The notes under the pieces are model-generated. The model was not told the origin of the DNA, did not search any database, and saw only the letters and a list, made by a program, of their open reading frames with translations. From positions 1 to 22,411 of IMG/VR virus record IMGVR_UViG_3300032296_001778: a stretch of 22,411 nucleotides of DNA. One strand, given 5' to 3'. Both the position numbers and the translations under genes were made by a program. Source of the stretch: a virus. Shown here piece by piece: positions 1,343 through 22,411 of this stretch (within the stretch, counting starts at the first letter, position 1; each line of letters starts with the position of its first letter).

Positions 1343-4141
1343 ATGGCTGATAGAGATATACAAATACAAATTAAAGCGGCAGTTGATACAGCAAATGCGG
1401 CTCAGAATTTAGGACAATTAGTTAATTCATTAGAACAATTAAATACTTTACAACAACAAGTAGGTGAAGGTTCTGCTGAATGGAAACAATTAGATACGGC
1501 CATTTCAGGAACTACACAAGCTATGGACCAAATGAGACAAAGTGGTTCTGACTTGAATGCTACATTTGAGCAAGTTTATGGTGACCTTCAACCTCTTACA
1601 ACAAGAATGGGTGAGGCTGAAGATAGATTATATGAATTGGCTTTGGCTGGTAAAACTGCTACAAAAGAATATAAAGACCTATTAGCACAAACAGCAAAGT
1701 ATAAACAAGTTCAACAACAAACAGATTTAGTTGTAGATGCTTCATCTAAGACAATCACACAGAAAATGGTTGGTGGTTTATCAGGTGTTGCCTCAGGTTT
1801 TGCTGCGGCACAAGGTGCTATGGCTGTATTTGGTGCTAACGGTCAAAAATTAGAAGCTGTTTTAGTTAAAGTAAATGGTGCTATGGCATTAGCACAAGGT
1901 ATTCAAGGACTTAAAGAGGCAGGACCTCTATTTACATCTATGGGTAAATCAGCTATGACTGCTTTACAAGGTATTAAAGGAGGTATTGCGGCAACAGGTA
2001 TTGGTTTATTACTTATTGCTGTTGGAACATTAGTTGCTTATTGGGATGATATAAAAGGTGCTATTAGTGGTGTATCTGCTGAACAAGAGGCATTGAATAA
2101 GAAAACAAGAGCGAATGTTGAAGCACAAAATGCTAAAATGGAGAGTTTATCTTTACAAGAAAACTCATTAAGATTACAAGGTAAGAGTGAAAGAGAAATC
2201 TTACAAATGAAGATTAAACAATCTGACCAACAAATCTTAGCATTAGAAGCGGCTATTACACAAGCAGAGGCTACAAAGAAATCACAAGTTGAGGCAGCAA
2301 AAAGAAATCAAGACATATTAAAAGGTATTTTAATGTTTGTTCAAGCACCTTTATTGTTAGTTCTTAAGTCTATTGATGAAATTGCTGCTTTTGCTGGTTT
2401 TGAGACAAACTTAGCAGGTGGTTTATTAGAGTTTGAGAGTTCATTCCTATTTGACCCTAAGGCTGTTGGTGAAGAGGCTGATAAAGCAATAAAAGAAGAT
2501 AAGAAGGCATTAGAACAATTAAAAAGTCAGAAGGCTGGTTTTCAATTAGAACTTAAAAACTTAGATAAACAAGCGGCTGATGAAAGAAAATCTGAGGCTA
2601 AATCAGAAGCAGATAAACAAAAAGAATTAAGACAAGGTCAATTAGATAATCTTAAAGGTATTATACAAAGAGAAACAGATGCTGTTAGAGAAGGTGAGGC
2701 TGCTAAGGTTAGTGCTATGGCTGATGGTATTGATAAACAAATTGCTGAATTAGAATTATCTTATAGTCAAGAAAGACAAGCCGTTATTGATAGAGCTACT
2801 GAAAATGAAATCAAAAAACTTGATGAGAAGTATGTAGCTGGTAAAATGACTGAACAACAATACAGAGATGAATTGTTGAAGATACAGACTAATACTTCTG
2901 AAAAAGGTATAGGTATATTAGATGAAGAAAAGGCATTATTAGAACAGAAAGAAAAGGCTAAGAATGATGCTATTAAGAAGATTAGAGAAGATGATAGAAA
3001 GTTAAAAGAGGCAGCAGCGAGACAAGATGTTATTAAGAGTGCTGAGACGGCAGCATCAGCAGCCGCATTTGAGTTAGAGAATACTGAAAAATTAGGTAGA
3101 GATAAGTTTGAGTTAATTAGAAAGAATGAAGATGCTCAATTAAATCTTGCTAAACAAAAATATGAAGTAGGTTTATTATTAGCATTAGATAATGAGGCTG
3201 AGAAGGCAAGAGTTGAAGAAGAATATAGACAGGCTAAGATTAAGGCTACACAAACAGCAGAAAAGGCTATAACAGAAATTGAAAAGTCAGAAAGAGAGAA
3301 AAGATTAAATGACTTAAAAGATAGCACTAAGCAAGTATTAGATGCCATTAAATCAGTAACTATGGAAGGTTCTATGGCTGTAGGTCAGGCTCTACAAGGT
3401 GCTTTAGGTGGTATAACTGGTTTTATTGATATACTTAAAACAGATTTTGAGGAAGGTATTCAAGGAACTATGGATAAGATTAATGCTTACGCTCAGGTTG
3501 TAGGTGGTGTTCTTAATTCATTTGTAGGTGCTATTGCTGAGGCTAATAAATCAAGATTAGAGAATGAGATTGATACTATTAAAGAACAGACTAATGCTGA
3601 AAAAGAAGAATTAAATAAGAAATATAGAAATGGCTTAATTGATAAGGCGGCTTATGATAAAGCATTTGGTGATTTAGATGCTAAGGCTAAACAAAAGGAA
3701 TTAGAAGCGAAGAAAAAGGCATTTGAGCAAGAGAAGAAAACTAAAATTGCCTCTGCTATTATATCAGGTCTTCAAGGTGCTGTTGCTGCTTTTACAGGTG
3801 CTATGAGTTTAGGTCCTATTGCTGGTCCTATTGTAGGTGGTGTTTTAGCTGCCGCAGTTGCTGCTATGACTGCTGTGAATGTGGCTAAAATTAAATCATC
3901 TAAGTTTGATGCTGGTGATGTAGGTGCTGTTGCGGCTCCTGATGTTGCGGCTCCTGGTAGTGCTGGTGGTGAAGGTGGAGGTGCTGCTTTTCAACCTACA
4001 CAATTCTTTGGTTTAGGTCAAGGTTCTCCTCAATCTGGTGCTGGTAATGGTGGTATGAGTAAAGTATATGTAACTGAGACTGATATAACATCAACACAGA
4101 ATAGAGTTAGAGTTATTGAAGATAGAGCGGTAATTGGCTAA
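1343..4141 (+). CDS. Tail tape measure protein
   Basis: This 932-residue protein has the layout of a siphovirus tape measure protein, which sets tail length and is ejected with the DNA. The first ~140 residues are Gln- and Ala-rich helix. Hydrophobic stretches follow at about 145-165, 213-235 (GGIAATGIGLLLIAVG) and 327-352. A long charged coiled coil rich in Lys, Glu and Ala spans about 375-680. A final hydrophobic segment at about 801-860 (Ala/Gly-rich, IASAIISGLQGAVAAF) precedes a Gly-rich tail. It is the largest gene in the window and follows the fibre gene by 4 bases. By the usual rule of about 0.15 nm per residue, the tail would be near 140 nm; this is inference. The start ATG has only an A-rich leader. 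Confidence 0.92.
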   Translation: MADRDIQIQIKAAVDTANAAQNLGQLVNSLEQLNTLQQQVGEGSAEWKQLDTAISGTTQAMDQMRQSGSDLNATFEQVYGDLQPLTTRMGEAEDRLYELALAGKTATKEYKDLLAQTAKYKQVQQQTDLVVDASSKTITQKMVGGLSGVASGFAAAQGAMAVFGANGQKLEAVLVKVNGAMALAQGIQGLKEAGPLFTSMGKSAMTALQGIKGGIAATGIGLLLIAVGTLVAYWDDIKGAISGVSAEQEALNKKTRANVEAQNAKMESLSLQENSLRLQGKSEREILQMKIKQSDQQILALEAAITQAEATKKSQVEAAKRNQDILKGILMFVQAPLLLVLKSIDEIAAFAGFETNLAGGLLEFESSFLFDPKAVGEEADKAIKEDKKALEQLKSQKAGFQLELKNLDKQAADERKSEAKSEADKQKELRQGQLDNLKGIIQRETDAVREGEAAKVSAMADGIDKQIAELELSYSQERQAVIDRATENEIKKLDEKYVAGKMTEQQYRDELLKIQTNTSEKGIGILDEEKALLEQKEKAKNDAIKKIREDDRKLKEAAARQDVIKSAETAASAAAFELENTEKLGRDKFELIRKNEDAQLNLAKQKYEVGLLLALDNEAEKARVEEEYRQAKIKATQTAEKAITEIEKSEREKRLNDLKDSTKQVLDAIKSVTMEGSMAVGQALQGALGGITGFIDILKTDFEEGIQGTMDKINAYAQVVGGVLNSFVGAIAEANKSRLENEIDTIKEQTNAEKEELNKKYRNGLIDKAAYDKAFGDLDAKAKQKELEAKKKAFEQEKKTKIASAIISGLQGAVAAFTGAMSLGPIAGPIVGGVLAAAVAAMTAVNVAKIKSSKFDAGDVGAVAAPDVAAPGSAGGEGGGAAFQPTQFFGLGQGSPQSGAGNGGMSKVYVTETDITSTQNRVRVIEDRAVIG

Positions 4142-6567: not shown

Positions 6568-7083
6568 ATGAGTTGTGTTTTAACAAACGGATATACATTA
6601 GGTTGTAGAGACGGCATTGGTGGTGTTCAAGAGATTTATATTGGAGAATACAATGCTGACGCATTAACTTTCTCTTTAACTGCCTCAAATGTTATTGATG
6701 CTTTCGGTGGTGCTACCGTATCATTCTATACATTTGAGCAAGAAATAGAAACAGGTTCTTACACTGAAAATGGTGTTTTCTCAACAGAGAATGGAACAGC
6801 GTTCTATGAAGAAACGCTTACAATAACTCTTCACAGATTAGATGCTACATTAAGAAATCAAATCTTATTGTTAGGTCAAGGTAAGTGGAGAATTATTATT
6901 AAAGACCAGAGAGGTGTTTATCACCTTATGGGAAAACAAAACCCAGTTAGAGTATCTGCTTCTACACCAGGTGTAGGTAAAGCATACGGAGACTTAAATG
7001 GTGCGGTTATTACTTTCTTAGGAAAAGAACCAGAACCAGCACATATAGTTTCAACTGCGGCTGCTTTAAGTGTAATCGCTTAA
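6568..7083 (+). CDS. Probable major tail (tube) protein
   Basis: This 171-residue protein follows the major capsid gene. It begins MSCVLTNGYTLGCRDGIGG, a Cys-containing opening I associate with structural proteins of Bacteroidota phages. It has alternating beta-strand sequence (VSFYTFEQEIETGSYTEN; ETLTITLHRLDA) and an Ala-rich end, compatible with a tail tube fold. A terminator follows within 60 bases, so it ends the capsid operon, where a high-copy protein would be expected. The tube function is inferred from size, beta content and location; a head decoration protein is the main alternative. Confidence 0.55.
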   Translation: MSCVLTNGYTLGCRDGIGGVQEIYIGEYNADALTFSLTASNVIDAFGGATVSFYTFEQEIETGSYTENGVFSTENGTAFYEETLTITLHRLDATLRNQILLLGQGKWRIIIKDQRGVYHLMGKQNPVRVSASTPGVGKAYGDLNGAVITFLGKEPEPAHIVSTAAALSVIA

Positions 7084-7220: not shown

Positions 7221-7478
7221 ATGAAGATAAAACTTAAAGAAGAGTATATTAACAAACAAATATATTTAGCAGTTGAAAACAGAGATGTATTAGGTAAATT
7301 TATAGATGTTAGGTTATATCCTTATTTACAAAAAAAGTATCCCGAATTCTTTGATTTAGTATGTGATAAATGTGATAATACTAAATGTAAATGTAAAAAA
7401 ACAAAAGAAACAAATGATATATCTATCAACAACACAAAGTCAATCAGTGGTTCTGACACTATCGGAGAAGGCGAGTAA
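7221..7478 (+). CDS. Small Cys-cluster protein, function unknown
   Basis: This 85-residue protein is the first gene behind promoter L3. Residues 1-45 resemble small proteins common in phage structural operons (KEEYINKQIYLAVENRDVLG). Four cysteines follow in CDKCDNTKCKC (Cys48, 51, 56, 58), a spacing that could bind a metal ion. The tail is Ser/Asn-rich. Its 3' end overlaps the next gene by 65 bases in another frame. I do not recognise a function. Position before the portal and connector genes suggests a minor head or neck component. Confidence 0.7.
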   Translation: MKIKLKEEYINKQIYLAVENRDVLGKFIDVRLYPYLQKKYPEFFDLVCDKCDNTKCKCKKTKETNDISINNTKSISGSDTIGEGE

Positions 7479-7812
7479 TGTAATTCCATACTATACTTGG
7501 GTTTTGTCTAACAGAGATAGTTTAATTGAGACAATAATCTCACCAGATAATTTCTCAACATCACCTTATTATGATAGTTTTACACTTTCAATAGGAACAG
7601 CTGTTAGTTTAACATCATCAGTTGTTATGAATATACCAGCAGGTGAGTATCATTATTCTGTTTATGAGATGACAACACAATATGACTTAAATATAAATAA
7701 TTCAGTAGGTTTAGTAGAGACTGGACTTTTAATGATTACAGGAACATCAACTCCATTTGTATCATTTACAGCGAGTGAAGGATTTACATTCACAACTTTT
7801 GATAATTATTAA
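7414..7812 (+). CDS. Small beta-rich structural protein, head-tail region
   Basis: The frame is open from 7363, but I start it at ATG 7414, giving 132 residues, because the product then begins MIYLSTTQSQSVVLTLSEKA, the type of opening seen in related phage proteins; the upstream residues are only the shadow of the previous gene's Lys-rich tail. The protein is nearly all beta strand and has blocks such as YYTWVLSNRDSLIETIIS and PAGEYHYSVYE, where the second half resembles a small immunoglobulin-like or jelly-roll fold. It precedes the portal gene by 16 bases. A head or tail accessory protein is likely; the exact role is unknown. Confidence 0.7.
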   Translation: MIYLSTTQSQSVVLTLSEKASNVIPYYTWVLSNRDSLIETIISPDNFSTSPYYDSFTLSIGTAVSLTSSVVMNIPAGEYHYSVYEMTTQYDLNINNSVGLVETGLLMITGTSTPFVSFTASEGFTFTTFDNY

Positions 7813-7828
7813 AAAAATAAATTAAAAA

Positions 7829-8944
7829 ATGGAAGAACAAGATAAAAAAATACAATTTGTAATTCAGAATTTTAACACATCTACGGCTCCTCAGTATGTT
7901 GAAAAGGCATCAAGAGCTGGTTATGTTTTTTATGGGGAGGACAATTTGTATCCTGACTATTTAATTTCATTAATGAATAGAAGTGCTAAACACAATGCTA
8001 TTCTAAATAGAAAGGCAATGATGATTGCTGGTAATGGTTGGAATACAGAAGGTTTAGATGGTATAGCGGCTCAGTTTGTATCAAATCCTTACAATGAATT
8101 ATCACTAAATGACATTGCGTTTAGAACATCTTATGACTTAGAATTGTTTGGAGCATTTGCTTTAGAGATAATTTACTCAAAAGATAAAAGTAAAATAGCT
8201 GAAATTAATTATTTACCAGCAAACAAAGTTAGAATGTCTGATTGTAAAAAGTATGTTTATTACTCAGATGATTGGTCTAACACAAGAAAATATACACCGG
8301 TTAAGAAACCTGTATTCAATCCTAAAAATCCAGTAGCATCTCAAATACTTTATGTAAAAGAATACAGACCAGGTTCAGAAGTTTATGGACAACCTGGTTA
8401 TTTATCATGTGTTAATTGGATTGCTTTAGAATACTCTATTAGTTTATTTCACTTAAATCAAGTTGATAATGGTTTTTCACCTTCAATGGTTATTACATTT
8501 AGAAATGGTGTTCCATCTGATGATGAAATGAGAAGTGTTATTAGACAATTACAATCAGATTATGAAGGTGCTACTAAATCAGGTAAGACAATGTTCTTAT
8601 TTGCTGATGGTGAGGACAACGCACCTCTTATTACACCTTTACAATTAAATGATAGTGATGAAAGATTTATTGAATTAAGTAAAGAAATCACTCAAGGTAT
8701 TTTAACAGGACACTCAATCACTAATCCTATTATTATGGGTATAGCAATTCCTGGTTCATTAGGAGCTAAGAATGAGATTATAGAAGGTGTTGAGATGTTT
8801 CAAGCAATGTATATAAACCCTAAACAACAATTAGTTGAAGCGGTGTATAACAGACTTTTAAGATTTAATGGCTCTCAGTCAAAACTTGAATTAAACAAGT
8901 ATGAGTTAGACATAGAAAAAATAACAGAAGGTAATGGACTATAA
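7829..8944 (+). CDS. Portal protein
   Basis: This 371-residue protein is recognised as a phage portal, the dodecameric ring at the head vertex through which DNA is packaged and which binds the terminase and connector. The N-terminal part has the expected GEDNLYPDYLISLMNRSAKH block and a helix with AILNRKAMMIAGNGW. The centre has strands with REGION-like pattern ILYVKEYRPGSEVYGQPGY, and the stem and crown helices follow (LNDSDERFIELSKEITQGIL and GAKNEIIEGVEMFQAM). At 371 residues it is at the short end of the family. Its last codons overlap the connector gene by 11 bases. It lies downstream of the capsid genes, opposite to the usual phage order. Codons for Gly-Glu-Asp at 7934-7942 carry one of the repeated GGAGGACA sites. 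Confidence 0.9.
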   Translation: MEEQDKKIQFVIQNFNTSTAPQYVEKASRAGYVFYGEDNLYPDYLISLMNRSAKHNAILNRKAMMIAGNGWNTEGLDGIAAQFVSNPYNELSLNDIAFRTSYDLELFGAFALEIIYSKDKSKIAEINYLPANKVRMSDCKKYVYYSDDWSNTRKYTPVKKPVFNPKNPVASQILYVKEYRPGSEVYGQPGYLSCVNWIALEYSISLFHLNQVDNGFSPSMVITFRNGVPSDDEMRSVIRQLQSDYEGATKSGKTMFLFADGEDNAPLITPLQLNDSDERFIELSKEITQGILTGHSITNPIIMGIAIPGSLGAKNEIIEGVEMFQAMYINPKQQLVEAVYNRLLRFNGSQSKLELNKYELDIEKITEGNGL

Positions 8945-9894: not shown

Positions 9895-10080
9895 ATGAAG
9901 AAGAGATTAATAAAGACAGGTATTATCACAACCTTATTAGGAGTGAGTATAATCATATTCAGTGGAGCAATGCTATGGACTGGAAAGGCATCGGCCGAAA
10001 GTCTTAGTGGTTGGTTAGCATTAGGAATTATGTTTCTTAGAAGTAATGATAGTTTAATTGGATTAGGACCTAAAGAATAA
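9895..10080 (+). CDS. Small two-helix membrane protein, candidate holin
   Basis: The 61-residue protein has a basic N-terminus (MKKRLIKTG), a clear transmembrane helix at about residues 9-29 (ITTLLGVSIIIFSGAMLW) and a second shorter hydrophobic stretch at about 37-49 (LSGWLALGIMFL), with a charged end. Size and topology fit a class II holin. It follows the coiled-coil membrane gene. No experiment-level evidence is possible from the sequence; an unrelated small membrane protein is the alternative. Confidence 0.6.
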   Translation: MKKRLIKTGIITTLLGVSIIIFSGAMLWTGKASAESLSGWLALGIMFLRSNDSLIGLGPKE

Positions 10081-10083
10081 GAT

Positions 10084-10212
10084 ATGAAGACTATTACATT
10101 AGATATAAGAGACTTTTATGATGTCATGAAGGTAAGTGTTCATAAGAATAAAAAAAAGTATTGTAGAAAAGAAAAACACAAAAAAAATAATAATAATAAA
10201 TGGGAAATATAA
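10084..10212 (+). CDS. Small basic protein, 42 aa
   Basis: A short frame starts 3 bases after the holin-like gene and overlaps the fibre gene by 13 bases. The N-terminal half (MKTITLDIRDFYDVMKVSVH) looks folded; the rest is Lys- and Asn-rich. No family is recognised. Operon packing supports it being a real gene. Confidence 0.5.
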   Translation: MKTITLDIRDFYDVMKVSVHKNKKKYCRKEKHKKNNNNKWEI

Positions 10213-11885
10213 CAACAACCAATAGAATGGCTATCTTAGATTTGATAGCACAAGCCGATGAGACGGTAGAAGTTACATCAATTGAAAATAGATTAACTAA
10301 TTTAGAAGACTTTATAAATGTTGATGCTACATCTGGTTATGCTACTTTTTCAGCATCACAATCAATAGTATCATCATCAACTGATGGTGTAACAACATCA
10401 ACTCAAACAATAACACCAATCTCAATTACTGGTGAAACTGATGCGTTAAACGCTAATGTTTATATACAAGCTCAATATACAACAACAGAACAGACAGGTA
10501 AAATTTCTTCTTTTATAGATGGTGGTGGTAAAGCTGCTATATATCTTGAAGCTGGTGATAATAATTTTTCATCATCTACTTATTCATTATACACTCAAAA
10601 TGAAAATTCAGTATCAACTTCAATAGCAGTAGGTGGAACTGAAAGCGCAGCAATTGCTATTAGTATTCCAGATAATCAAATTCTTATGCGTATAGGTGAT
10701 TATCTTGGTGGTGGAATAAATTATTCTGAAAATAGTATTAGTCCATATTTACAATATATGGCTTCTGTTGGAACAAACAACACACCAAATACAATAGTAT
10801 CTGATTTAAGATTAGACCCTCTTAATGTAGATGAAGGAACTATGTTTAGAGTAAGAAATGTTGATACTGGTTTATTAGCAAAATTAGAACTTGACCCGGC
10901 TGGTGAGTTAAATGGTAATAGATTATACTCAACTGATGGAACATATGAAACAAGTATTTCTTTTGATGCTAATGGAGCAACCTTTATAGATTTGGTAGCA
11001 ACAGGAACAAATTTTGTTACGAGTATTAATGTATCAGAAAATAAATCAACTTTATCAAGTAATGATGTATCTAATTCAATTTTATCTAAAATTGAAGCAT
11101 CTAATGAACCTGGAGACCCCTTTATTAGAATTCAATCAATAGATAGTGCTAATAGTAATGAAGGTAGAATAGATATAACCTTAGCTACTATGTCAATTAC
11201 ATCAACTGATGGAACAACTACGCTATCAAGTGTATATGATGCTTCTTTACAAACAATAGTGGATACAGCAACTGATGGAACAGATACATCATCAATTACA
11301 ATACAACCACTCGGTATTTCATTTTTTACAGATGATGGTGTTTATGAAGGTAGTATATCAAGCTCAAAAACATCTGCTATAATTCAAGTTGAAGAAAAAA
11401 CCGTATCAAAATCAAGAATAGATTTTACACAAAATACTTCTATATTAAAAACCGAAGATTTAGCAACTGGTGAATACTCTCAAATAGATACAACTACAAC
11501 ATCAGCTGTTATTTCATCTACTGATACAACTTGGACTACAAATGTTAATGTATATCCATCTAATTTTGAGGCTAATACTACTGATGGAACAAGTGATAAA
11601 TGGATAGGACAAGATACAACACAAGTTTTAATTTATTCAACTGATGGAACAAATCAATCAACAATTGATGTTTATGATAATTCTATGGCATTGTCAGTTA
11701 CTGATGGTTTAACAACAACATCTATAACTATTGGAACGGTAAGTATTCAGTTAGATAATATACCATCTTATGATGATGATAGTGCTGCTGGAACAGGTGG
11801 TTTAACACCTGGTATGATATATATGACAACAGGTGGAGGAGCTAATCCTTTAGATGTAGCAGGTATTCTAATGATAAAACAATAA
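10200..11885 (+). CDS. Tail fibre-type structural protein with TDG repeats
   Basis: This 561-residue protein begins with a helical N-terminus (residues about 5-37, ending IENRLTNLEDFI) that could be the trimerising attachment part. It continues as a long beta-rich stem full of Ser, Thr, Asp and Gly. A [ST]TDG[TV] motif recurs at least seven times, at irregular intervals. The extreme C-terminus (GLTPGMIYMTTGGGANPLDV, then AGILMIKQ) matches a short end block I associate with tail fibre and baseplate proteins of Bacteroidota phages. It is the last gene of the portal operon and stops 25 bases before a two-way terminator. A role as tail fibre or appendage is inferred; receptor binding is possible but not shown. 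Confidence 0.65.
   Translation: MGNITTTNRMAILDLIAQADETVEVTSIENRLTNLEDFINVDATSGYATFSASQSIVSSSTDGVTTSTQTITPISITGETDALNANVYIQAQYTTTEQTGKISSFIDGGGKAAIYLEAGDNNFSSSTYSLYTQNENSVSTSIAVGGTESAAIAISIPDNQILMRIGDYLGGGINYSENSISPYLQYMASVGTNNTPNTIVSDLRLDPLNVDEGTMFRVRNVDTGLLAKLELDPAGELNGNRLYSTDGTYETSISFDANGATFIDLVATGTNFVTSINVSENKSTLSSNDVSNSILSKIEASNEPGDPFIRIQSIDSANSNEGRIDITLATMSITSTDGTTTLSSVYDASLQTIVDTATDGTDTSSITIQPLGISFFTDDGVYEGSISSSKTSAIIQVEEKTVSKSRIDFTQNTSILKTEDLATGEYSQIDTTTTSAVISSTDTTWTTNVNVYPSNFEANTTDGTSDKWIGQDTTQVLIYSTDGTNQSTIDVYDNSMALSVTDGLTTTSITIGTVSIQLDNIPSYDDDSAAGTGGLTPGMIYMTTGGGANPLDVAGILMIKQ
10378..11711 (+). repeat. Dispersed ACTGATGG(A/T) repeats in the fibre gene
   Basis: ACTGATGG recurs in the same frame at about 10379, 10932, 11208, 11272, 11579, 11639 and 11700, usually followed by AACA, encoding Thr-Asp-Gly-Thr. 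Spacing is irregular, so these are likely turns of a beta-structured stem and not a simple tandem array. Confidence 0.6.
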
Positions 11886-19616: not shown

Positions 19617-20039
19617 ATGCCAAAACAAATAAAAACAGAAGACTTAGTTAATGGTGTAGTAAAGATGAAAGTTGAGAATGGTGCTTCTAATAAGACCATT
19701 CTTGACTTTCTAATGAATGACTTAGGTTATGGTCAATCATACGCCTATGAAGTTATGAGAGAAGCCAGAAAGAAAATACAAGAGATATGGGATAAGAATG
19801 CTGAAGCACATTTAGAAGAAGCAAAGGCACATTTAGAAGAATTGTATGAGAATGCTATTAGAAGAAAAGATATGAAGTTGGCTTTACAAGTCAGACAAGA
19901 ACTGAATAAACTTATGGGTCTATATTCACCTGAAAAACTTGATATAACATCTAACGGTCAAACTATATCAGAGATAAAAATAATTGAAATAAGAAATGAG
20001 CAGAAGCCTGGAGCTGAAGACAACACCAGTGTTCAGTAA
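19617..20039 (+). CDS. Terminase small subunit
   Basis: The 140-residue protein has the layout of a phage terminase small subunit, which recognises the packaging site and loads the large subunit. An N-terminal helix-turn-helix is seen (about 20-50, NKTILDFLMNDLGYGQSYAYEVM), then a long oligomerising helix pair (about 52-95, including a repeated EAHLEEAKAHLEELY) and a flexible charged tail for binding the large subunit. It overlaps the large subunit gene by 44 bases in another frame. The role is inferred from layout and position. Confidence 0.85.
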   Translation: MPKQIKTEDLVNGVVKMKVENGASNKTILDFLMNDLGYGQSYAYEVMREARKKIQEIWDKNAEAHLEEAKAHLEELYENAIRRKDMKLALQVRQELNKLMGLYSPEKLDITSNGQTISEIKIIEIRNEQKPGAEDNTSVQ

Positions 20040-21171
20040 GAACTGGGATGTTATTAATAATGAAAAGATTAGATTTGTAATCAATCAAGGTGGTTCAAGA
20101 AGTTCTAAAACATATTCTATTTGTCAATTACTTATTGTCTTATGTCTCAAACAACCTGGTGTAATGATTTCTATTGTAAGAAAGTCTTTTCCATCACTTA
20201 GAGCGTCTGTAATGAGAGATTTCTTTGAGGTGATGAGAGAATTAAACTTATATAAGACAACAGAACATCATAAAACAGAAAACATTTACAACTTTGATAA
20301 TGGTTCATCAGTTGAATTCTTTGCTGTTGATGATGAACAGAAGTTAAGAGGTAGAAAAAGAGATATATTATGGGCCAATGAGGCAAATGAGTTGAATTTT
20401 GAGGAATATACTCAGTTAAATATGAGAACAACTGGTAAATTAATCTTTGACTTTAACCCATCAGATAATTTTCACTGGTTATATGACCTTATATCAAGAC
20501 CTGAGAGTAAATTAATACACTCTACCTATAAAGATAATCCATTTTTAGAAGAAGCGTTAGTAAAAGAGATTGAAAACCTCATCAATGTAGATGAGAGTTA
20601 TTATAGAATTTATGCCTTAGGTGAAAAAGGAACAGGTAAGACTACAATCTATACTCATTGGAAGTATTATGAAGATTTACCTGAGACTAAAACAAAGATA
20701 TATGGTCTTGACTTTGGTTTCAATCACCCTATGTCTTTATTAGAAGTAAATTTTATTGATAATAAAGCTTATGTTAGAGAATTAGTTTATGAAAGTGGTT
20801 TAACGGTAGATGATTTAATTTTAAGAATGTCCTCCCTTGAAGTCAGTAAGAAACATGAAATGATTTGTGATGGTGCCAGACCTGAGATGATTGAAGAAAT
20901 AAAGAGAGCTGGTTATATGGCTAAGTCTGCTGTTAAAGAGGTAAAGAAAGGAATAGACAGCGTTAAATCTACTGAGTTATACATTCATAAGGAAAGTCTT
21001 AATGTAGTTAAAGAGACGGCTTCTTACAAATGGAAAACAAATGGTGATGTTATATTAGATGAGCCAGTAAAGATGTATGATGATGCTATGGATGCTATGA
21101 GATATGCTATACATTGGTGGAAGTTAAAAGGTAAAAAAACAGATAAGAATTATTTTAGAATACACTATTAG
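19996..21171 (+). CDS. Terminase large subunit
   Basis: This 391-residue packaging motor has a clear PBSX-type layout. The Walker A is GGSRSSKT (residues 32-39) and the Walker B with catalytic Glu is DILWANEAN (Glu129). The coupling region is around FDFNPSDNFHWLY (151-163). The nuclease domain follows, with acidic residues in IYGLDFGFNHP (Asp239), ICDGARPEMIEE (Asp292) and MYDDAMDAMRYAI (Asp362, 363 and 366). The ATG at 19996 is inside the small subunit gene; the reading MELKTTPVF-like opening (LELKTTPVFSKNW) supports this start. Oddly, the linker between the two domains reads GEKGTGKTT (209-217), a second perfect P-loop pattern. A GGAGGACA site lies on the opposite strand at 20828-20835. Confidence 0.95.
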   Translation: MSRSLELKTTPVFSKNWDVINNEKIRFVINQGGSRSSKTYSICQLLIVLCLKQPGVMISIVRKSFPSLRASVMRDFFEVMRELNLYKTTEHHKTENIYNFDNGSSVEFFAVDDEQKLRGRKRDILWANEANELNFEEYTQLNMRTTGKLIFDFNPSDNFHWLYDLISRPESKLIHSTYKDNPFLEEALVKEIENLINVDESYYRIYALGEKGTGKTTIYTHWKYYEDLPETKTKIYGLDFGFNHPMSLLEVNFIDNKAYVRELVYESGLTVDDLILRMSSLEVSKKHEMICDGARPEMIEEIKRAGYMAKSAVKEVKKGIDSVKSTELYIHKESLNVVKETASYKWKTNGDVILDEPVKMYDDAMDAMRYAIHWWKLKGKKTDKNYFRIHY

Positions 21172-21218: not shown

Positions 21219-21815
21219 ATGATTGAATTTACATTAAATGAAAAGGCCTATAAAATGGCTACAAGTTGGGAAGAACTTACATTAGATAAGTATATTAACT
21301 TAGTTAATTTACAAGGTGTTGATGCTGAAGTTAAGATTGAAGAGTTGTATTTACTTAAAATTGTTGGTGCTTTATGTGGTGTTGATTTAAGTGAGTTATA
21401 TGAACTTGATATGGATACGGTTAGAAATCTTGTAGATAAGTTAGAATTTATTTACAAACAACCTGAGTGGCCATTGAAAAGATTTATTATGTTTAATGAC
21501 CAGATGTTTGTGTTTCCACAAGAATTGAATAAGATTACAATGGGTGAGATTATATCAATTAAGACATTACAAGAGAATAAAGGACAAGGTGAGTTCTTAC
21601 CTTATCTTTTAGCGGTTATATTAAGACCAGGTAGTGAGTATGAAGTTAATGGTGAGAAGAAATATAAACAAGATAAGTTTAATGCTGATGATATAGAGTA
21701 TAGAGCTAAATTATTTTTAGATTTAACTATACCTGAAATTATGGGAAGCATCAATTTTTTTTTAACTGGGAACAATATATTACCAAGCAATACAGCGGTC
21801 TCTACAGAAAAGTAA
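21219..21815 (+). CDS. Tail assembly chaperone, zero-frame product
   Basis: The 198-residue protein opens MIEFTLNEKAYKMATSWEEL, followed by TLDKYINLVNL, the type of start seen in tail assembly chaperones that coat the tape measure protein before tail polymerisation. The rest is helical and acidic. A U_UUU_UUA slip site lies near the end (21758-21764). After it the zero frame adds only 17 codons, while the -1 frame stays open for 90, the pattern of the lambda G/GT pair. The tape measure gene is not adjacent in this window, though it may be a few genes away beyond the right edge or in circular order. Confidence 0.75.
   Translation: MIEFTLNEKAYKMATSWEELTLDKYINLVNLQGVDAEVKIEELYLLKIVGALCGVDLSELYELDMDTVRNLVDKLEFIYKQPEWPLKRFIMFNDQMFVFPQELNKITMGEIISIKTLQENKGQGEFLPYLLAVILRPGSEYEVNGEKKYKQDKFNADDIEYRAKLFLDLTIPEIMGSINFFLTGNNILPSNTAVSTEK
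21758..21764 (+). promoter_or_regulatory. -1 ribosomal frameshift site, T_TTT_TTA
   Basis: A run of nine T (21755-21763) followed by AA contains T TTT TTA aligned with zero-frame codons TTT (21759-21761) and TTA (21762-21764), the X_XXY_YYZ form also used by HIV-1 gag-pol. Slipping both tRNAs back one base continues at AAC (21764). Confidence 0.75.
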
Positions 21816-22036
21816 GCTCAGTAGAAACCCCTACGCTTGGAGGTTATGTTTTAGATAGTAGATGGGGTTGGTTAGCAATGGTTGATAGACTTAGTCAAGG
21901 TGATATAACTAAACATGACCAGATATATGAAAGGAATTATATTGAGTGTCTAAACTTATTATCATTCTGGCACGAGAGAGATAAGTTTTATGAACAACAA
22001 AATGAAATAAAAAATAGACAACATAGACATGGCTAA
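21764..22036 (+). CDS. Tail assembly chaperone, frameshift (GT-like) extension
   Basis: This is the -1 frame, open from just after a TGA near 21735 to TAA 22034-22036. It has no ATG until codon 40 (21881), so it is best read as the extension added by frameshifting, giving a fused product of about 272 residues. The extension (NWEQYITKQYSGLYRK; later GWLAMVDRLSQGDITKHDQI; NLLSFWHERDKFYEQQNEI) is helical and Trp-rich, as in T-domain extensions that bind the tail tube protein. It overlaps the next gene by 8 bases. Confidence 0.7.
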   Translation, partial: NWEQYITKQYSGLYRKVSSVETPTLGGYVLDSRWGWLAMVDRLSQGDITKHDQIYERNYIECLNLLSFWHERDKFYEQQNEIKNRQHRHG

Positions 22037-22411
22037 TAATACGGTGAGTATAAATAAAATAGTTTCAATCTTTCAAGACTTGGCTATTAGACAACAAATG
22101 ATAAATGATTTTGGTTATGGACCAGCATATAACATAGGTGCTTCTAATGAAATGAAGTTTCCTTATATTTGGATTGAGAATAATAATACTACAACACAAA
22201 GAAGTGATAATGGTTACAAAGTTAATCTATACACATTCACGGTTTATTGTATGGATAAAATCAACTTTGGGGAGGACAACTATAATGAAATTATATCAGA
22301 TACTCATTACATTTTAGACACAATGATTAGTGAAATCTCACAACATAAATACTATGTTGATATGAATTTGTCTATTGATGGTGATATAAACTTCACACCT
22401 GTTGTTGAAGC
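22029..22411 (+). CDS. Probable tail completion or terminator protein, 3' end missing
   Basis: ATG 22029 starts inside the end of the chaperone extension and the frame is open to the window edge (127 codons visible). The product (MANNTVSINKIVSIFQDLAI; FPYIWIENNNTTTQRS; GYKVNLYTFTVYCMDKINFG; YNEIISDTHYILDTMISEI) has the helix, strand, helix order and the periodic acidic helix typical of small tail terminator or neck proteins. The function is inferred and unconfirmed because the gene is cut. A GGAGGACA site is at 22271-22278 in codons Gly-Glu-Asp-Asn. Confidence 0.6.
   Translation, partial: MANNTVSINKIVSIFQDLAIRQQMINDFGYGPAYNIGASNEMKFPYIWIENNNTTTQRSDNGYKVNLYTFTVYCMDKINFGEDNYNEIISDTHYILDTMISEISQHKYYVDMNLSIDGDINFTPVVE

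Follow-up and report, generated by a model that had tools for sequence, protein, structure and literature searches.

Recoded tail chaperones are a textbook case of ribosomal frameshifting. The slip site of phage lambda is G_GGA_AAG and the -1 site of P2 is T-rich, and recoding close to a gene's end, with the addition of a domain of some ninety residues, is the pattern of the tail chaperones. By such a -1 shift lambda and many dsDNA phages make the protein pair gpG and gpGT, and the minimal -1 site is a tetramer of the form Z_ZZN (PMC5009743).

The gene described here was found in a stretch of viral DNA of 22,411 nucleotides (IMG/VR record IMGVR_UViG_3300032296_001778), analysed over its whole length and called the window in what follows; the recoded gene, its T run and the terminase, terminator-like and tape measure genes are all on the plus strand. 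The window, a partial contig, belongs to a phage of which a fuller copy is available (G001). The account that we favour on balance is that of a gene recoded by a programmed -1 shift, which encodes a short chaperone and a longer fusion and at which the slip is made at least partly by the ribosome.

The recoded gene and its relatives

The zero frame begins with an ATG at 21219 and ends with a TAA at 21813-21815 (gene 21219-21815). Its product of 198 aa is the proposed short form, a gpG-like tail assembly chaperone, as suggested by the ORF itself, its relatives, an AlphaFold2 model and a profile match. Near the end of the gene lies a run of nine T (21755-21763), the recoding site, read in the zero frame as AAT TTT TTT TTA. 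The run provides two in-phase slippery heptamers, U_UUU_UUA (21758-21764) and U_UUU_UUU (21755-21761), the codon phase of both being read directly. Past the slip, the -1 frame starts with AAC at 21764 and is open for 90 codons up to a stop at 22034-22036 (ORF 21764-22036); it would encode the gpT-like C-terminal domain of the fusion, judging from the conserved offset, the alignment, the dN/dS values and the relatives fused in frame. A sequence-only reading of the window had described the heptamer T_TTT_TTA within nine T, a zero-frame stop 17 codons beyond the slip and a -1 frame of 90 codons ending at 22036 and lacking an ATG at its outset. All of this is borne out by the codon phase and the ORF coordinates: in the -1 frame an ATG first appears at codon 39 (21878), and neither GTG nor TTG precedes it.

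Translation of the second ORF from a start of its own has a point in its favour in Nonlabens phage P12024S, where an ATG at 23663 is used in the annotation of gp39. In the window, however, the first ATG lies past the conserved columns E3, L13, G26 and W36, and an independent start is rejected there, no ATG, GTG or TTG being present in the first 38 codons; this explanation is considered very improbable.

Relatives were collected by scans with the terminase large subunit (TerL), the -1 product and the alignment of the latter, which gave a panel of 54 distinct loci with both parts, the window included. Together with the loci L025 and L125 and with P12024S, the number of distinct recoded sites is 57. 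At every panel locus (54/54) the first part is followed by the second in the -1 frame, and so it is in L025, L125 and P12024S, with U_UUU at the joint throughout. Across the 16 relatives of alignment A1 the -1 product has 37-71% identity, with twelve invariant columns, and in most of these relatives it is more conserved than the zero-frame part, whose product has 26-48% identity to its relatives. Between closely related sequences dN falls far short of dS in both parts (for the -1 part, dN/dS is well below 1 in 13 close pairs), and by this sequence measure purifying selection acts on the -1 frame.

Homopolymers are prone to errors, and the two frames might be put down to a mistake of sequencing or assembly at the T run or to decay of the gene. 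Against this, T9 together with the -1 offset recurs in dozens of contigs, drawn from many samples, as well as in the GenBank phage P12024S, so that the homologues with a matching slip site which the earlier reading had named as a check do exist, and both parts are under purifying selection. A chance run, an assembly error and a pseudogene are therefore excluded by the conservation of the offset and by a dN far below dS in both parts, and the probability left to error or decay is negligible.

Some relatives carry both parts in a single uninterrupted frame. L122 and L123 (identical in this region) and L124 do so, and fall inside the recoded family on a quick tree. More distant proteins of this kind are gp12 of Flavobacterium phage 2A, gp17 of Flavobacterium phage laban6-1 and gp31 of Bacteroides phage BT-TP2. 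A profile of the joined product matches the profile of these three with an E value of 6e-12, in an alignment that spans the junction; the -1 part alone is below significance, and the zero-frame product matches the 2A gp12 family in a profile-profile comparison with an E value of 2.3e-11. Programmed -1 recoding, as initially proposed, is strongly supported by the conserved offset and slip site, the purifying selection and these single-frame relatives, and it is almost certain at this locus.

Flavobacterium phage 6H (NC_021867, L099) presents unusual frames at 10047-10927, where gp10 and the following gap are out of frame. Its relative 2A has an intact gene of 293 aa, so sequence errors in 6H are the most likely cause.

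Searches of GenBank phages with the products of the window by tblastn gave no match, and the isolate phages were reached via the fold search and then by profiles. The hosts of the nearest isolated phages indicate that the host is probably a member of the Bacteroidota. Among cellular genome contigs no relative was confirmed. A gene of similar size after TerL in Parabacteroides phage PM21P1 was also considered as a relative and rejected, as the profile of the family did not match it.

The slip site and the agent of slipping

The T9 run is found at 47 of the 57 recoded sites (45/54 in the panel) and a run of T8-T10 at 51, the longest T run near the junction having been scored at each locus and the longer one wherever there were two candidates. 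A run of nine T is by itself unsurprising in the AT-rich window, where 3 are observed vs 5.6 expected; its conservation at the junction is far beyond chance. Elsewhere on the plus strand of the 54-locus panel (374 kb), just 2 of the 154 runs of at least six T are nine long. NNT TTT TTT TTA/G/C is the site in most relatives; CAG TTT TTT TTT ATC, with ACC in place of ATC in one member, characterises another large group, and further sites are GTT TTT TTT TGG (L088 and L090), CTT TTT TTT TCA (L023) and CTT TTT TTT TAT (L025 and P12024S); T9 at the slip site spans all three codon phases. T10 is present in L013 and L125, and T8 in L067 and L089.

An in-phase U_UUU, the P-site core, is common to all panel loci (54/54): 48 have T8-T10 with an in-phase heptamer, one has T6 with U_UUU_UUA, and five have the tetramer only. 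Keeping of the run is not universal, as six split-frame loci with T4 or T6 retain the offset. Most of them (L051, L052, L053, L056 and L063) form a clade with a support of 100/100 nested among T9 relatives, with the site GCT TTT A(C/T)R (T4) or, in L052, GGT TTT TTA (T6), and with the -1 offset kept. L086, which stands apart from this clade, also has a short run, within the range of 4-6 T, and the same offset.

If the slip is ribosomal, most translation would end 17 codons past the site and yield the protein of 198 aa, and a minority would shift by -1 on U9, at U_UUU_UUA overlapped by U_UUU_UUU, and read 90 codons to give a fusion of about 270 aa. The short product would accordingly be expected in excess over the fusion. 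The proposal of a ribosomal slip at U_UUU_UUA holds in part: the heptamer is in phase and the T4/T6 clade fits it, because Z_ZZN tetramers are minimal -1 sites (PMC5009743), but the constancy of T9 fits transcriptional slippage. Within the T4/T6 clade, ribosomal slipping at U_UUU is the only mechanism at hand. As for a downstream stimulatory RNA structure, folding of single sequences gave no consistent fold, with z-scores mostly near zero and a few strongly negative; the class-A alignment gave no consensus fold for a stem-loop or pseudoknot, and the T4/T6-clade alignment nothing convincing.

The RNA-DNA hybrid within RNA polymerase measures about nine base pairs. The same gene pair could be expressed with RNA polymerase, slipping on T9, as the main source of the shift, some of the mRNAs then carrying an extra U. 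The T runs on which transcriptional slippage is known are those of Tn with n above 8 (PMC3711429), and for bacteria it is established on nine consecutive A or T (PMC5009743); a run kept constantly at nine is in this known range and therefore argues for polymerase slippage. This length is kept despite differing codon phases and flanking residues, is rare among the T runs elsewhere in the panel, and exceeds the need of a ribosomal heptamer, for which U_UUU_UUN suffices. Moreover, wherever the run begins at a wobble base, that base, just before the first TTT, is always T although it belongs to codons of several amino acids, and the tree shows at least nine codon changes across which it was kept; the chance of this constancy is ~1e-8 for independent draws and ~0.008 for one draw per codon type, relatedness placing the true value between the two. 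On the other side, the T4/T6 clade and L086 keep the offset with 4-6 T, below the known range of transcriptional slippage, and T9 always includes an in-phase U_UUU_UUU; longer U runs may also be selected for the two tandem ribosomal heptamers that they offer.

Slipping by the ribosome is retained as the leading mechanism, with polymerase slippage as a close rival and a joint action of both possible; at least part of the slipping is presumably done by the ribosome. That RNA polymerase is the main agent is conceivable, though the lesser prospect. Equally tentative is a broader picture of a tail chaperone family of Bacteroidota phages in which polymerase slippage on the exact T9, with or without ribosomal slipping, would set the ratio of short to long product, one lineage having become purely ribosomal and another fused.

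Gene neighbourhood and identity of the protein

The upstream neighbour of the recoded gene is the gene of the terminase large subunit (19996-21171; PF04466, E 9.3e-29; phrog_2, E 6.5e-41), in agreement with the sequence-only reading, and a tape measure gene is present too, at 1343-4141 (phrog_24676, tail length tape measure, E 2.4e-13), about 10 kb downstream of the recoded gene on a map presumed to be circular. The gene that follows the recoded one (22029-22411) runs off the window and is tail-terminator-like, its match to PF23818 Phage_tail_terminator_7 (E 0.032) being below the cut-off; most of the examined relatives have a terminator-like gene immediately past the -1 ORF. The resulting order is TerL, recoded gene, terminator-like gene and Neck1-like gene, with the tape measure gene ~10 kb further on. 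The fuller copy G001 (IMGVR_UViG_3300033571_007312, also L095; 30,588 bases) begins where the last gene of the window continues, and the coordinates and the protein overlap indicate that the map is probably circular, with ~280 bases of overlap if it is a circle. In G002 and in the presumed circle of G001 the recoded gene is thus not directly upstream of the tape measure gene, the two being ~10 kb apart. In Flavobacterium phage 2A (Unahavirus), the gene of the gp12 family is ~3 kb upstream of the annotated tape measure gene.

Other features of these maps may be recorded here. Given a circular map, the tape measure gene is ahead of the protease and capsid genes. A probable tail fibre gene precedes the tape measure gene and has collagen-like TSGSSG/INGTSG repeats at its start (1-1338 in the window, 8217-8600 in L095). 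After a candidate tail tube gene (6568-7083) the window has two overlapping ORFs of 85 and 149 aa at 7221-7812, the second without a clear start outside the first, which could be either an ordinary overlap or another frame junction. In L094 (3270-4904) the terminator-like protein downstream of the recoded gene continues, as a fusion, into collagen-like G-x-x repeats and another C-terminal region. In L025 (7818-8142) the recoded pair, with its T9 at 7869, and the terminator-like gene are located ~2.7 kb downstream of TerL and do not adjoin it.

In the search against phage tail chaperone families suggested by the earlier reading, no family with such a name in Pfam, NCBIfam or PHROG reached a significant match to the recoded protein, and no significant match of any named function was obtained for it in Pfam, PHROGs, NCBIfam or PDB. 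PF10109 (Phage_TAC_7) reached E values of 0.036 and 0.087 in two relatives, below the cut-off, and the protein of the window itself has no match to it. AlphaFold2 gave a fairly confident model of the zero-frame product (mean pLDDT 81.6); the -1 domain alone was poorly modelled (pLDDT 64) and was left out of the fold search. With the zero-frame model, Foldseek retrieved 41 viral proteins at E <=0.001, none of which has a named function and two of which are P12024S gp38 and 6H gp10. In BFVD one protein annotated as a tail assembly chaperone, A0A8S5V8Z8, was matched weakly (E 6.6e-3, prob 0.98), and in PDB no solved structure was matched.

It could then be asked whether the recoding is real but the product, in its short and extended forms, is another head-tail or neck protein. 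Its neighbours are the terminase and the terminator-like and Neck1-like proteins and not the tape measure protein, the single-frame relatives are located after a DUF6712 protein, and a match to a TAC family is absent, all of which would suit such a protein. The addition of a domain of this size by recoding close to a gene's end is nevertheless the pattern of tail chaperones (PMC5009743), and the Foldseek match to A0A8S5V8Z8 and the signal of PF10109 in two relatives point the same way; a different head-tail or neck protein is accordingly held to be rather unlikely. The earlier identification as a tail chaperone is made plausible by the architecture, by the position of the 2A gene upstream of the tape measure gene and by one weak fold match, but not by any curated family or solved structure nor by a place adjoining the tape measure gene. 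On architecture and synteny, the recoded gene is likely to be a tail assembly chaperone. On the model of lambda gpG/gpGT, the short product would form a coat on the tape measure protein, and tail tube subunits would be recruited by the domain that the fusion has in addition.

Comparison with known systems

The family, seen in more than 50 related viruses, is probably an unannotated version of the tail assembly chaperone pair: it has the architecture of the tail chaperones away from the tape measure gene, and its annotated relatives are hypothetical proteins. Within it natural variants occur together (T9 in three codon phases, T8, T10, T6, T4 and fused single frames), a set that allows one to ask directly whether the ribosome or RNA polymerase slips, and by what steps the one mechanism gives way to the other.

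With Shigella mxiE, a case of transcriptional slippage (cited in PMC3711429), the locus shares a long T run that joins two frames; mxiE is a host regulator gene and not a phage structural gene, and in the gene of the window slippage of this type is a candidate. A weak similarity to PF10109 (the P2 gpE and Mu gp41 type) is seen in two relatives, but the match is below the curated cut-off and a protein of 198 aa in the window compares with a profile of 79 positions. In lambda gpG/gpGT, as here, a -1 shift close to the end of a zero-frame gene lengthens its reading, to give a short product and a fusion; unlike the lambda pair, the gene of the window has no detected homology to a curated TAC family, is away from the tape measure gene and uses a U9 run instead of G_GGA_AAG. 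In Flavobacterium phages 2A (gp12) and laban6-1 (gp17; phrog_25418) the first part is homologous and the joined profile spans the junction, but the frame is uninterrupted and recoding is unneeded, and the 2A gene is upstream of the tape measure gene.

A likeness in gene order is found in Nonlabens phage P12024S (L098, 23136-23830), where the annotation of gp38 and gp39 goes no further than hypothetical protein and the -1 part appears as a truncated separate gene, gp39. Its gp38 (phrog_32199) is matched by the zero-frame profile with an E value of 2e-12, the T9 site is at ~23578 and the -1 frame runs through gp39, so that the present reading would correct the annotation of this and other isolates. 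As in the window, the order is TerL, zero-frame gene, T9, -1 frame, terminator-like gene and Neck1-like gene.
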